A stretch of 64,000 nucleotides of DNA, from the NCBI RefSeq assembly GCF_947501785.1, contig NZ_CANMXB010000001.1:1383048-1447047 (forward strand), written 5' to 3'. This DNA comes from an uncultured Litoreibacter sp. Lineage in GTDB: Bacteria; Pseudomonadota; Alphaproteobacteria; Rhodobacterales; Rhodobacteraceae. Each line of letters opens with the position of its first letter. The first letter of the stretch is position 1. The notes beneath the pieces are model-generated. The model was given only the letters and a program-made list of their open reading frames with translations. It did no database searches and was not told the origin of the DNA. Below, in pieces: positions 36,030 through 52,417 of the stretch. A program made the position numbers and the translations under genes.

Positions 36030-36114
36030 ATCCGCCTCATTTTACCGCCGCTCTCTTAGTGAGAGCTTATTTTGTATGTGCGACCTTGCTGACCGCTACA
36101 TGTTGTGAGCCCCC

Positions 36115-48828: not shown

Positions 48829-49205
48829 GGATAGTCCTCATCGGGCGACGTCTGGTTGGCAGGATCAATCTGCCCACGCACGTCAACAGAACCCGTCAAC
48901 TCGTTGATATCAAAGGTCGCAGGCGGGAAGCCCACTTGCGTCACGCTGCCAAATTGCGCGCTGGTGATTGGCAGCAATTGCAGCCGTTCGAAGTTCAGAT
49001 CGGCAAGATCGGCCAGACGTTCTGGGCGGTTCAGATAGGCCCATTCCGCCTGCAAAACGCTCAAGGTTTCGCGCGACGAGCCGATTTCGCGCTGCAAGCC
49101 GCTGGCTGTGCGTAGGCTGTCGCGGGTTTTGTAGTTTTCCGAGTAAGACCAATAGGCCAGGCCCATGACGATCACCGCAAACAACCCGAACAACAAACCA
49201 CGCAT
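48825..49205 (-). CDS. ftsL: cell division protein FtsL
   Basis: A 126-residue bitopic protein: one N-terminal helix (GLLFGLFAVIVMGLAYWSY) followed by a periplasmic heptad-like coiled coil (about 30-65: SLRTASGLQREIGSSRETLSVL) and the EWAYLNRPERLADLA motif shared by FtsL proteins. The rest of about 50 residues is polar. It lies between rsmH and ftsI, overlapping each by one to four bases. Confidence 0.9.
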   Translation of the reverse strand: MRGLLFGLFAVIVMGLAYWSYSENYKTRDSLRTASGLQREIGSSRETLSVLQAEWAYLNRPERLADLADLNFERLQLLPITSAQFGSVTQVGFPPATFDINELTGSVDVRGQIDPANQTSPDEDYP

Positions 49206-50203
49206 TACAATAGGTCCTTCCCAACAAGTTTCGGCAGTCCAAGCCCCGCGCGGTCGCTGTCGCGTGGCGGGGTCTCAGTGCGGGTCGCCACCCGCAATTT
49301 TGCAGAGCGGGAGCGCGGGTTGCGCGCTAGCTCGTCATTATCCGCCGCGATCGCGCGGCGGGGTGTTAAATCGAATGTGGGGGCCTCGGTCTCGACCGCC
49401 GGGGCGTAGCGCGACCCGCCGCCTGTGGCGCCGGCGCGGGAGGCGAGGAACTTCTTCACCACGCGGTCTTCGAGCGAATGGAAGCTGACAACCGCCAGCT
49501 GCCCGCCGGGTTTCAACGCACGTTCCGCGGCCTCCAAGCCTTTGATCAATTGACCAAATTCGTCATTCACCGCAATCCGGATCGCCTGAAAGCTGCGGGT
49601 CGCGGGATGGCTTTGCCCCGGCTTTGATTTCGGCAAGACGCTTTCAATCGCCGCCGCCAGCTCTCCTGTTGTCGTCATTGGCCGCGCCGACAATATGGCC
49701 CGGGCGATGCGACGCGAGGCGCGCTCTTCACCGTATTGAAACAGGATGTCAGCAAGCAACGCCTCGTCCGCGCCATTCACCAGATCGGCTGCAGAGACCC
49801 CGTCTTGCCCCATCCGCATGTCCAGCGGCCCGTCGCGCAAGAAGGAAAAGCCGCGTTCCGGCTGGTCCAGCTGCATTGACGATACACCCAGATCCAAGAC
49901 CACGCCGTCTAATGGCAGCAAATCGCCCGCAAGACTGTCCAAATCGGAAAATGTGCCCTCGACCAGCATCAGCCGGTCGCCGTAGTCGCCCAACCAAGGC
50001 TCGGCCATGTCGAACACCATCGGGTCGCGGTCGACGCCGATGACTTTGGAAGACCCAGCGTCCAGAAACGCGCGGCTGTAGCCGCCCGCGCCAAATGTGC
50101 CGTCCAACCAGACGCCCGAGGCGTCCACATGTTCTAAAATAGCGTCGATAAGAACCGGCAGGTGCGGTGCATCACTTTGAGGCTCGCGCACGGAAGAGGC
50201 CAT
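49205..50203 (-). CDS. rsmH: 16S rRNA (cytosine-1402-N4)-methyltransferase RsmH
   Basis: A 332-residue SAM-dependent methyltransferase for 16S rRNA C1402 (formerly MraW). Motifs: [19 protein letters not shown] (SAM motif I), [19 protein letters not shown] and [16 protein letters not shown]. Its standard place is directly after mraZ, 3 bp away here. Confidence 0.97.
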
Positions 50204-50206
50204 GTC

Positions 50207-50719
50207 TTACTCTCCCGCCGACGCGACTGGGTCATCATCCAGCAGGGTCAAAGGATCGAAATCATCCCCCTGCTCGGACAGCCAATCCTCGATATCCGCG
50301 TTGCGGGCCTCATAGGCGTCAGGTGCCCATATCTGGAATGTGTCGCCAGCCGCTTTGAAATATGCCTCGCTGGTGATGCCAATTTTTTCACGTAACTTGG
50401 CGGGCAGAACCAGACGACCGGTGTCATCGGTCTGCGTTGGCAGCGACTGTCCGTTAAAGATATGTTCCAGCGCGCGGCGGCCTTTTGAGCCGCGCGGCAA
50501 AGCGCTGATTTTGGCGTCAACTTCGGTGATCGCCTCTTGTGTATAGCATTCAAGGTAGTTTTGGGACGCGCCGCCATAGACGATTACAACGTTGGGCTGC
50601 AGCCCTTCGGTCCAATCAGCGTCCGAGGCCTCCAGCACACGGCGAAAGAGGGCCGGGATAGACACCCTGCCCTTGCTGTCCACCTTGTGGACGCTTTCGC
50701 CTCTGAACCTTTGCGCCAC
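50207..50719 (-). CDS. mraZ: transcriptional regulator MraZ
   Basis: A 170-residue AbrB/SpoVT-fold DNA-binding protein, the first gene and autoregulator of the dcw operon. Two SpoVT-like repeats are present (KVDSKGRVSIPALFR and TDDTGRLVLPAKLREKI); the C-terminal acidic extension of about 25 residues is longer than in E. coli. The GTG at 50719 starts the family N terminus MAQRFRGES; AAGGGG lies about 8 bases upstream. MraZ oligomers bind TGGGN direct repeats, which are present upstream. Confidence 0.96.
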   Translation of the reverse strand: MAQRFRGESVHKVDSKGRVSIPALFRRVLEASDADWTEGLQPNVVIVYGGASQNYLECYTQEAITEVDAKISALPRGSKGRRALEHIFNGQSLPTQTDDTGRLVLPAKLREKIGITSEAYFKAAGDTFQIWAPDAYEARNADIEDWLSEQGDDFDPLTLLDDDPVASAGE

Positions 50720-50759
50720 TCAAGTGACCCCTTGTCCCGTATTCCCGCCCAGCCGTCTT

Positions 50760-50970
50760 TAGAAATGGAAACGGCGAGTTGATCTGCTGCCACTGATCAA
50801 CTCGCCGCGTGTTCCCACTTGGGGAGGTGTCGGACCCGCGCCACCTGGGGGGATGTCTGCTCGCGCAGGGTCCGACGTCTTTCGATGTGAAAGGGTGCCT
50901 GTATGAAACCTTTTGGTCGCCTTTGGGGTTCTTGAGCGCCCCTTGTTATGGCCCGTCCTCATCGTGGAAC
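50760..50970 (-). ncRNA. putative UpsM-like mraZ leader small RNA
   Basis: In Rhodobacter sphaeroides the 5' leader of mraZ yields the abundant UpsM small RNA of about 200 nt by termination before mraZ. Here the same position ends in a strong hairpin (50772-50807) followed by a T-rich tail, about 50 bases before the mraZ GTG. Counting back about 200 nt puts the 5' end near 50970, just downstream of the TGGGN array. Primary sequence could not be compared; the boundaries are approximate inference. Confidence 0.5.
50761..50807 (-). terminator. 13-bp perfect hairpin in the mraZ leader
   Basis: Minus-strand arms CGGCGAGTTGATC (50807-50795) and GATCAACTCGCCG (50784-50772) with a 10-base loop, followed by TTTCCATTTCT. 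Such a stem is strong enough to act as an attenuator upstream of the dcw operon. The T tract is interrupted, so efficiency would be partial. Confidence 0.65.
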
Positions 50971-50980
50971 TGTTGTGCCA

Positions 50981-51040
50981 TGGGAGATCATGGGAAGCAA
51001 TGGAAAATTATGGGTAATGATGGTCACATGTGGTCACACA
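50981..51040 (+). promoter_or_regulatory. MraZ-box array: six TGGNN units at exact 10-bp spacing
   Basis: Plus-strand TGGGA (50981), TGGGA (50991), TGGAA (51001), TGGGT (51011), TGGTC (51021), TGGTC (51031), each separated by 5 bases. MraZ is known to bind TGGGN repeats with 5-nt spacers upstream of mraZ. The array lies 262-321 bp from the mraZ start, beyond the leader hairpin. The last two units deviate from consensus. Confidence 0.8.
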
Positions 51041-51139
51041 GCTTGGCGACACATCCCATTTTGACCCCAAAATCGGCACCACTAGCGGAACGCGGTCCGA
51101 TAGCTACTAGATATAGTGGGTCAATTTTTTGGTGAGTTT

Positions 51140-51154
51140 TCCCATAATTTCCCA
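51140..51154 (-). promoter_or_regulatory. opposed pair of TGGGA boxes
   Basis: Minus-strand TGGGA at 51154-51150 and TGGGA at 51144-51140, again 10 bp apart, facing the plus-strand array 100 bp away. Possible second MraZ site, but two boxes are weak evidence alone. Confidence 0.45.
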
Positions 51155-51208
51155 CGAATTTTCGGTTTCGCGACCAATTTGGGGATCAATTCCCATGCCA
51201 ACCCCACC

Positions 51209-51258
51209 GAATCACCCGTATGTGAGTCATTTTGATTCGCGATTCAAGGTTATCCACA
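51209..51258. promoter_or_regulatory. four GANTC sites and a perfect DnaA box
   Basis: GAATC (51209-51213), GAGTC (51224-51228), GATTC (51234-51238), GATTC (51241-51245), then TTATCCACA (51250-51258), a perfect match to the E. coli-type DnaA box. GANTC is the CcrM methylation site of alphaproteobacteria. The cluster lies in the mrp-mraZ intergenic region, about 490 bp upstream of mraZ. Confidence 0.7.
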
Positions 51259-51325
51259 GGCACGCCGGCGGGATTGCGCCGGAGCGCCCCCCCCTAAACC
51301 AACTGAATTGCGTTTGGTCAGCCCG

Positions 51326-52417
51326 TCAGGCCATGCCGCCATCGATCAAACGGCGCGCCAACGTGGTGTAGGCGGCAGCCAATGCCCCCTCGCCTGCTGA
51401 GATCGGTGTGCCGCTGTCACCCGCAAGACGGATATCCAAATCAAGCGGGATCTCACCAAGGAAGGGCAGCCCCAGCTTCTCGGCCTCGTCCCTGACGCCA
51501 CCATGCCCGAAGATATGCGCTTCTGTCCCGCAGGTGGGACAAATGTAATGTGACATGTTCTCAACCAACCCCAAGACAGGCGTGTGCAGCGTCTTGAACA
51601 TATCGAGCGCCTTGCGCGCATCCAGCAGCGCCACGTCTTGCGGAGTGGAGACCACAATGGCTCCGGTCATCTGCGTTTTGGTGCAGAGCGTCAGCTGCAC
51701 GTCGCCAGTGCCCGGCGGCAGATCGACCAGCAGAATGTCCAGCTCGCCCCATTCTACCTGCCCCATCATCTGTTGCAGCGCGCCCATCAACATCGGACCC
51801 CGCCAGACCACGGCCTTGTCCGGGTCCATCATCAGCCCGATGCTCATCATCGTGACACCATGCGATTGCAGCGGAATTATGGATTTGCCGTCCGGCGACT
51901 TTGGCCGCTCCGATACGCCCATCATGCGCGGCTGAGACGGCCCGTATATATCAGCGTCCAAAAGCCCGACCTTGCGGCCTTGTTTGGCAAGCGCGACAGC
52001 GAGATTTGACGACAATGTGGATTTGCCCACCCCGCCCTTGCCGGACGCAATCGCCACGATGCGGTCAACGCCGGACGGTTTGGTGGCTTCCGCCTGCGGT
52101 TTGGGGTGGCCGCCAATTTTCAGCGAAGGTGGTGCGCCCGCGGGCGCGGCTGACGCGGCAGATGTCGGCGCGGGGCCATGCGCGGTCAGAACCGCGGAGA
52201 CACTCTCTACACCGTCGACGCGCGAGACAATCGCTTGCGCCGCGTCGCGCACGCCTGCGAATTTCGGGGCCTGGTCCGGAGACACCTCAATGACGAATCG
52301 AACGGCACCGCCGTCGATGCTCAAAGCGCGGATCATGTCGCGTGAGACCAGATCGCCGCCATCGGGAAGACCTAGGCTGCGCAAAGCAGCGAGAATTTGC
52401 TCGTTGGTGGCAGACAT
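51326..52417 (-). CDS. mrp: Mrp/ApbC-family Fe-S cluster carrier ATPase
   Basis: A 363-residue P-loop NTPase that scaffolds or transfers Fe-S clusters. N-terminal MIP18/DUF59 region (residues 1-95), then an Ala/Pro-rich linker, then the deviant Walker [10 protein letters not shown] (near 127-135) with [26 protein letters not shown] and the cysteine motif CPTC (near 288) for the bridging cluster. It lies upstream of mraZ on the same strand, 606 bp away. Confidence 0.94.

Follow-up and report, generated by a model that had tools for sequence, protein, structure and literature searches.

The phased TGGGN-like repeats upstream of mraZ in an uncultured Litoreibacter sp. very likely form part of a class-wide alphaproteobacterial MraZ operator, embedded in the promoter that it would repress and inverted relative to its E. 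coli counterpart. We favor this reading because antisense arrays recur across the class, stand in register, and seldom occur in genomes without a detected MraZ. The mraZ gene opens a division cluster that ranks among the most conserved in bacteria, and the role of MraZ outside a few model organisms is unclear.

Results

The window, by which we mean the whole 64,000-nucleotide stretch analyzed, encodes mraZ on the minus strand (50207–50719; an ORF call of 170 aa with a GTG start at 50719). A profile search assigns the product to the NCBIfam equivalog NF001476 (191 bits, cut-off 162), and the protein contains VDSKGRVSIP and TDDTGRLVLP, which we take to be two DxxGR-type loops. It is 94% identical to MraZ of the uncultured Litoreibacter L007 and 80–83% identical to MraZ of five other Litoreibacter records, while a sequence search of solved structures gave no match at E 0.01. 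The flanking genes are rsmH downstream (49205–50203) and mrp/apbC upstream (51326–52417), the latter co-directional with mraZ and separated from it by 606 bp. An Rfam search of 50100–51500 returned two matches only, both on the plus strand and far under the family cut-offs (P13, 19.4 bits against 70; snoZ188, 16.8 bits against 50), and these were taken as chance.

Within this gap, the units TGGGA, TGGGA, TGGAA, TGGGT, TGGTC, and TGGTC start on the plus strand at 50981, 50991, 51001, 51011, 51021, and 51031, the last ending at 51035. The six units and their exact 10-bp phase are as the first-pass annotation had described them, and the 262–321 bp that it gives as the distance from the start codon (GTG, 50719) hold for the stretch 50981–51040. 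As the array strand is opposite to that of mraZ, the boxes are antisense to the gene. Units 1–4 (50981–51015) match TGGGA in at least four of five letters and occupy a register common to the family and the class; TGGG is found in units 1, 2, and 4, unit 3 being TGGAA. The weak units 5 and 6 (51021–51035) keep the same phase and match in three letters. Four TGG at 10-bp steps are matched three times in the 64-kb window, by overlapping hits that all come from the array, and 100 shuffles of the window give a mean of 0.03 such matches and a maximum of 1. Across the whole 3.89-Mb genome, this pattern returns the three matches of the array and three single places elsewhere, with none in a backward control, and TGGGN6TGGGN6TGG occurs at five places (one of them the array) versus three in the backward control. 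The window holds at least three phased TGGGN-like direct repeats with 5-nt spacers, placed upstream of mraZ and the dcw cluster, where rsmH follows mraZ, in a genome that encodes MraZ.

A scan of 76 Rhodobacteraceae loci reveals a predicted promoter running through the array on the minus strand. Its −35 element is TTGCTT (50995–51000; class consensus TTGACg) and its −10 element CACAAC (50972–50977), where CATCCC is commonest in relatives and TATCCC in the class, so that the window reads TTGCTT-CCCATGATCTCCCATGG-CACAAC from 51000 down to 50972. Boxes 1 and 2 occupy the 17-bp spacer. CACAAC is a poor −10 match, and the box that overlies the −10 in many relatives is missing in the window. The consensus of relatives on the mraZ strand is TTGATT-TCCATGAATTCCCATGG-CATCCC, and 72 of the 76 loci agree with it at no fewer than 17 of its 30 positions, a count that leans toward the consensus because these very loci served to derive it. 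Both spacer CCA units are present in 64 of these 72 loci, and CCC overlies the −10 in 46. Three Roseovarius-type loci (L045, L049, and L057) carry the second of the spacer boxes in inverted form (CCATGGGACAATTTCCCA), a naturally occurring variation on the promoter array.

The same layout extends to the class. The TTG stands in one shared register with the boxes in 30 of 48 class arrays and at a neighboring offset in 17, and 29 of 34 family arrays use the same register as the class. The 30 in-register class arrays yield the consensus TTcCCA-TTGACg-CCCATataaTCCCATGa-TATCCC-ATaataTCCCA, indicating that the boxes overlap the −35, spacer, and −10 in the register seen in Rhodobacteraceae. The window shares this promoter-embedded layout, with antisense boxes, a fixed register to the −35 TTG, and a 17-bp spacer, minus the −10 box; the E. 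coli-type layout, in which the boxes share the strand of mraZ and follow the −10, is not found there. An earlier suggestion that the array lies near a transcription start gains support from its overlap with this predicted promoter, which is conserved in Rhodobacteraceae.

We place the likely transcription start at about 50965, some 246 nt upstream of mraZ. The segment that follows (50760–50965, minus strand) resembles the 5′ leader UpsM: it is conserved in relatives, the fold of 50760–50966 has a z-score of −4.87 with none of 200 shuffles as stable, and a terminator-like hairpin (50772–50807, minus strand) is followed by TTTCCATTTCT. The window thus has a predicted structured leader of about 200 nt with a terminator-like end upstream of mraZ. 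According to the available parts of the R. sphaeroides UpsM study, the UpsM promoter lies 268 nt upstream of mraZ with none nearer, and about 1 in 100 transcripts is estimated to pass the terminator (PMC5089854). The predicted start agrees with that distance, and the predicted layout in the window parallels that of UpsM in its leader of about 200 nt, its terminator-like end before mraZ, and its promoter at a similar distance (PMC5089854, same parts). The words "repeat" and "TGGG" are absent from the main text of that paper, the portion available. By position, the predicted promoter would be that of the UpsM leader and the dcw operon, and the long UpsM-like leader accounts for the longer distance from array to mraZ than in E. 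coli.

To compare loci, we searched the 700 bp upstream of mraZ and counted as an array any run of three or more units spaced 10 bp apart, each matching TGGGA in 4/5 letters with GG required. MraZ matches were present in 289/295 family and 100/115 class genomes; from the matches listed, 60 family loci from different genera and 60 class loci were picked by hand, mainly on long contigs. A set of named loci consists of the best 80 of 363, and the 77 with at least 600 nt upstream, window included, were counted. Removing family loci that duplicate named ones (L088/L014, L090/L017, L096/L048, and L144/L050) leaves 133 non-duplicate Rhodobacteraceae loci. Among the 60 alphaproteobacteria outside the family, 48 carry an antisense array and none a sense array, and control lags of 7, 8, 9, 11, 12, and 13 give no array. 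The 60 family genera have 34 antisense and 10 sense arrays (0–1 at control lags), and the 77 named loci have 52 and 7; in the non-duplicate set, 84/133 are antisense and 16/133 sense, with no antisense array at the other lags tried. By this scoring, no antisense run of three is found in 12/60 class genomes and 49/133 Rhodobacteraceae loci.

Close relatives keep the boxes. TGG runs of six occur in three of seven Litoreibacter loci (the window, L007, and L012), runs of three in L008–L010, and fewer than three in L011, all counted within 600 bp upstream. Judged by sequence, the boxes are neither absent from relatives nor apart from the predicted promoter, and persistence of the array, which the first-pass annotation had proposed to check, is borne out to this extent. 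Outside the class, we fetched 20 of the matching genomes of the phylum. Six have a sense array, 55–157 bp before the first domain match, and 14 have neither; in one of the six, a G-rich run at −564 is antisense as well, and a single array turned up at one control lag. Array orientation therefore appears to differ between alphaproteobacteria and other members of the phylum, the latter being a small sample of 20 genomes.

We then compared alphaproteobacteria with and without MraZ. Of 22 genomes lacking a Pfam MraZ match, 18 were searched for rsmH and 17 used, with G344 left out as its gene is in pieces. In the stretch of about 1 kb upstream of rsmH, arrays occur in 2/17 of these, versus 48/60 of those with MraZ (Fisher p 4e-7, with genomes treated without regard to phylogeny). 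In G325, one of the two, a MraZ-like ORF that the Pfam search had overlooked comes right after the array (L239, 520–1023, reverse complement), and in G492 the run contains no TGGGA unit and no MraZ was detected. G303 has an overlooked MraZ-like ORF (MraZ-like sequence at about 558 of L250) and no array, which counts against a strict link between array and MraZ. Taken together, the phase, the conserved promoter-like place, the recurrence in the class, and the encoded MraZ bear out, at the level of sequence, the original designation of the units as MraZ-type boxes.

Could the phased CCCAT units be mostly promoter sequence, namely a spacer that the housekeeping sigma factor favors, or be read by CenR, NtrX, or CtrA rather than MraZ? 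The conserved core does coincide with the −35/−10 region. CenR and NtrX were located at the R. sphaeroides mraZ promoter by ChIP-seq, and a CtrA motif is reported for S. meliloti mraZ, as far as the accessible portions of these papers go (PMC9275681, PMC7240162, PMC3616915). TGA-N7-TGA, with the 10-bp pitch that the available CenR text states and close to the CenR direct repeat of R. sphaeroides, occurs over units 5–6 (51036 to 51024, minus strand) and at 51223 (plus strand). L007 and L012 read differently at the stretch over units 5–6, which leaves the odds of a rival regulator unchanged. At R. sphaeroides mraZ, the CenR study detected neither a motif close to the start nor an altered signal in inactive strains, in the sections available (PMC9275681). 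Against a promoter-only origin, class boxes continue in phase beyond the promoter, both upstream of the −35 and downstream of the −10, TGGGA pairs recur upstream in inverted orientation without in-register promoter elements, and few genomes without a detected MraZ have an array (2/17). Nor does the intergenic region of the window contain GCA-N9-TGC (NtrX), TGA-N8-TGA (the CenR motif as printed), or TTAA-N7-TTAA, which is the CtrA motif. We consider such a non-MraZ origin unlikely and retain MraZ as the probable reader of the boxes.

The first-pass annotation had further suggested that, with six boxes in one phase, MraZ control is stronger or acts over a longer range than in E. coli, to which it ascribed three or four. 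No TGG run in the Rhodobacteraceae sets exceeds six, a length found in 3/77 named loci, all Litoreibacter and including L007 and L012 with six units in phase; the 60 genera have at most four. Yet units 5 and 6 are TGGTC, the window is without the −10 box of many relatives, L008–L011 have runs of three or fewer, and the longest antisense TGG run in the class is 4, 5, 6, and 7 units in 20, 16, 3, and 1 of 60 genomes, respectively. A run of six thus stands out within the family but not within the class. Since only four boxes are good and runs of 5–7 occur in 20/60 class genomes, the suggestion of stronger or longer-range control is not supported, and we regard it as rather improbable.

A second pair of MraZ-type units, TGGGA-AATTA-TGGGA, lies farther upstream on the minus strand (51140–51154; TGGGAAATTATGGGA from 51154 to 51140), that is, on the mraZ strand and inverted relative to the promoter array. 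Two more TGGG units (TGGGG and TGGGA, 11 bp apart) lie at 51191–51206 on the same strand. In the named loci, TGGGA on the mraZ strand between −700 and −400 occurs 57, 51, and 100 times per 100-bp bin versus 11.6, 9.4, and 10.0 in shuffles, and its complement TCCCA dominates −300 to −200 (118 versus 5.4). Strict TGGGA pairs at lag 10 between −700 and −320 are found in 34/77 named and 24/60 family loci (57/133 non-duplicate), with 0–3 at other lags and 2/60 in the class. Two Roseovarius loci, L053 (about −747 to −695) and L076 (about −658 to −599), each have six TGGGA in three pairs, spaced 10 bp within and 9–13 bp between pairs, beyond the conserved pair. From sequence, this inverted box set, shared by many marine relatives, looks new.

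The inverted pair has the orientation that the class uses for its promoter arrays, here fitting a promoter that fires away from mraZ, and it might be read as the operator of a divergent MraZ-controlled promoter instead of an auxiliary operator or part of a loop. An in-register TTG on that strand accompanies only 3/77 of these pairs (about 3.6 expected), as against 82/103 promoter-proximal pairs, and mrp lies upstream and co-directional with mraZ in all 32 loci (32/32) where it was found within the fetched DNA. The lack of in-register promoter elements speaks against a divergent promoter at the second array, which we judge highly improbable.

Between the two arrays lies a palindrome, CACTATATCTAGTA (51105–51118, minus strand), that resembles an NrdR box and matches at 13 of 14 positions what we take to be the NrdR-box consensus, ACACWATATATWGTGT. 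The form CACWANATNTWGTG (at least 12/14) occurs at −520 to −340 in 60/77 named and 45/60 family loci, or 103/133 non-duplicate Rhodobacteraceae loci, versus 2% in shuffles and 0 and 3% for the reversed palindrome. In the class, no locus has it at −520 to −340, and at most 5% have it nearer mraZ. The distance to the preceding [TC]GGGA is 26–28 bp in 50 and 36–38 bp in 19 of 105 sites, and partner palindromes among these 105 mraZ sites peak at +30 (18), +64/65 (27), and +94/95 (26). The partner in the window is weak (8/14).

The palindrome is shared with other promoters of the family. It lies upstream of nrdJ in 16/24 genomes (0.4 expected; reversed control 0), 8 of them having a weak partner at −31, and upstream of ccrM in 12/23 (L287–L309; 0.25 expected; reversed control 0), where partners are mostly at +41 (weak, in 9 of 12 strong-site regions) and one is at −32. 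An nrdJ locus was found in 24/25 genomes, and 23/24 ccrM loci were used, L310 being dropped at 35% identity. In the Litoreibacter genome itself, which encodes nrdR (TIGR00244, 161.7 bits), palindromes with one mismatch each lie upstream of mraZ (51105–51118) and ddl (36094–36107), both in the dcw cluster. Sites with at most one mismatch also lie near the starts of nrdJ, ccrM, gyrB, bamA, and a gap-like gene (L256, L253, L262, L255, and L252), with names taken from a profile search except for the gap-like gene, named by eye. Genome-wide there are 11 sites at this threshold versus 23 for the reversed palindrome, a count not above control, and we therefore make no claim for the single sites near gyrB, bamA, and gap. 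In P. aeruginosa, NrdR boxes are 16-bp palindromes, two per ribonucleotide reductase (RNR) promoter, in the available text (PMC4409342). The Rhodobacteraceae palindrome has the same form as these boxes and is found upstream of nrdJ, there with partners mostly about 31 bp away; unlike them, the candidate NrdR box at mraZ stands upstream of a division operon. "mraZ" and "ccrM" are absent from the main text, the portion available, of an NrdR regulon survey (PMC5343134). The shared form suggests that NrdR may act at the dcw promoter; the genome-wide count and the weak partner in the window speak against it.

Also near the second array are four GANTC (CcrM-type) sites within 37 bp (51209–51245) and a perfect DnaA box, TTATCCACA (51250–51258). 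GANTC is about 2-fold enriched there over shuffles in the named loci (181 versus 81) and the genera (133 versus 59), and in the class the counts are 32 versus 56.

Discussion

The array of the window resembles that of E. coli in its TGGGN repeats, its 10-bp steps upstream of mraZ, and the MraZ encoded next door. The E. coli boxes, which Eraso and colleagues reportedly placed at mraZ1p in 2014, read TGGGA-TGGGG-TGGGA in the MG1655 sequence, on the mraZ strand, the first of them 43 bp ahead of the start codon. In contrast to these three boxes on the mraZ strand, the window has six units at least 262 bp away, antisense and inside a predicted promoter. In B. cenocepacia, PmraBc has four repeats that overlap the start site and, "as in E. 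coli", lie downstream of the −10, in the parts of that report available (PMC7761207). These repeats are phased as in the window, and according to the same parts the fragment bearing them is bound by MraZ in gel shift; the window boxes differ in lying over the predicted −35/−10 instead of downstream of the −10 (PMC7761207). A literature search returned no account of MraZ with TGGGN repeats, and none of MraZ direct repeats for Alphaproteobacteria, where earlier predictions of MraZ or NrdR sites are possible and RegPrecise lay outside the search; for the period since 2022, it found nothing on MraZ, the dcw operon promoter, and cryo-EM.

In E. coli, MraZ acts as a repressor of the operon that encodes it (Eraso 2014, as cited in PMC8475190 and PMC7761207), and in other bacteria it is reported as a ring-shaped octamer (as cited in PMC7761207), in the excerpts available of the citing papers. 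We infer that MraZ binds and represses at the array of the window. With its DNA-binding faces, the ring would engage one box after another on the same side of the helix, and in this position it would span the −35 and spacer and keep RNA polymerase off. More MraZ would then mean less transcription, a negative feedback. Units 3–6 may strengthen the array upstream of the −35 in the window, where the box over the −10 of many relatives has presumably been lost.

More tentatively, the dcw cluster of Rhodobacteraceae may sit behind a compound switch, a scheme built on sequence patterns that we hold to be possible though doubtful. It would comprise the promoter-woven MraZ array and the inverted array about 150 bp upstream, the latter keeping a preferred helical spacing to NrdR-type boxes. 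An MraZ ring could join the two arrays in a repression loop, and NrdR would tie dcw/UpsM and ccrM to DNA-precursor supply. NrdR senses ATP/dATP. The inverted second array with its NrdR-type boxes is the more novel part of these findings.

Simple steric repression is what one would predict from an inverted, class-wide operator set within the promoter, which would also provide a sequence rule for locating dcw promoters in alphaproteobacteria. With the inverted array and its NrdR-type boxes in Rhodobacteraceae, it becomes testable whether the division operon is directly linked to the sensing of DNA precursors.
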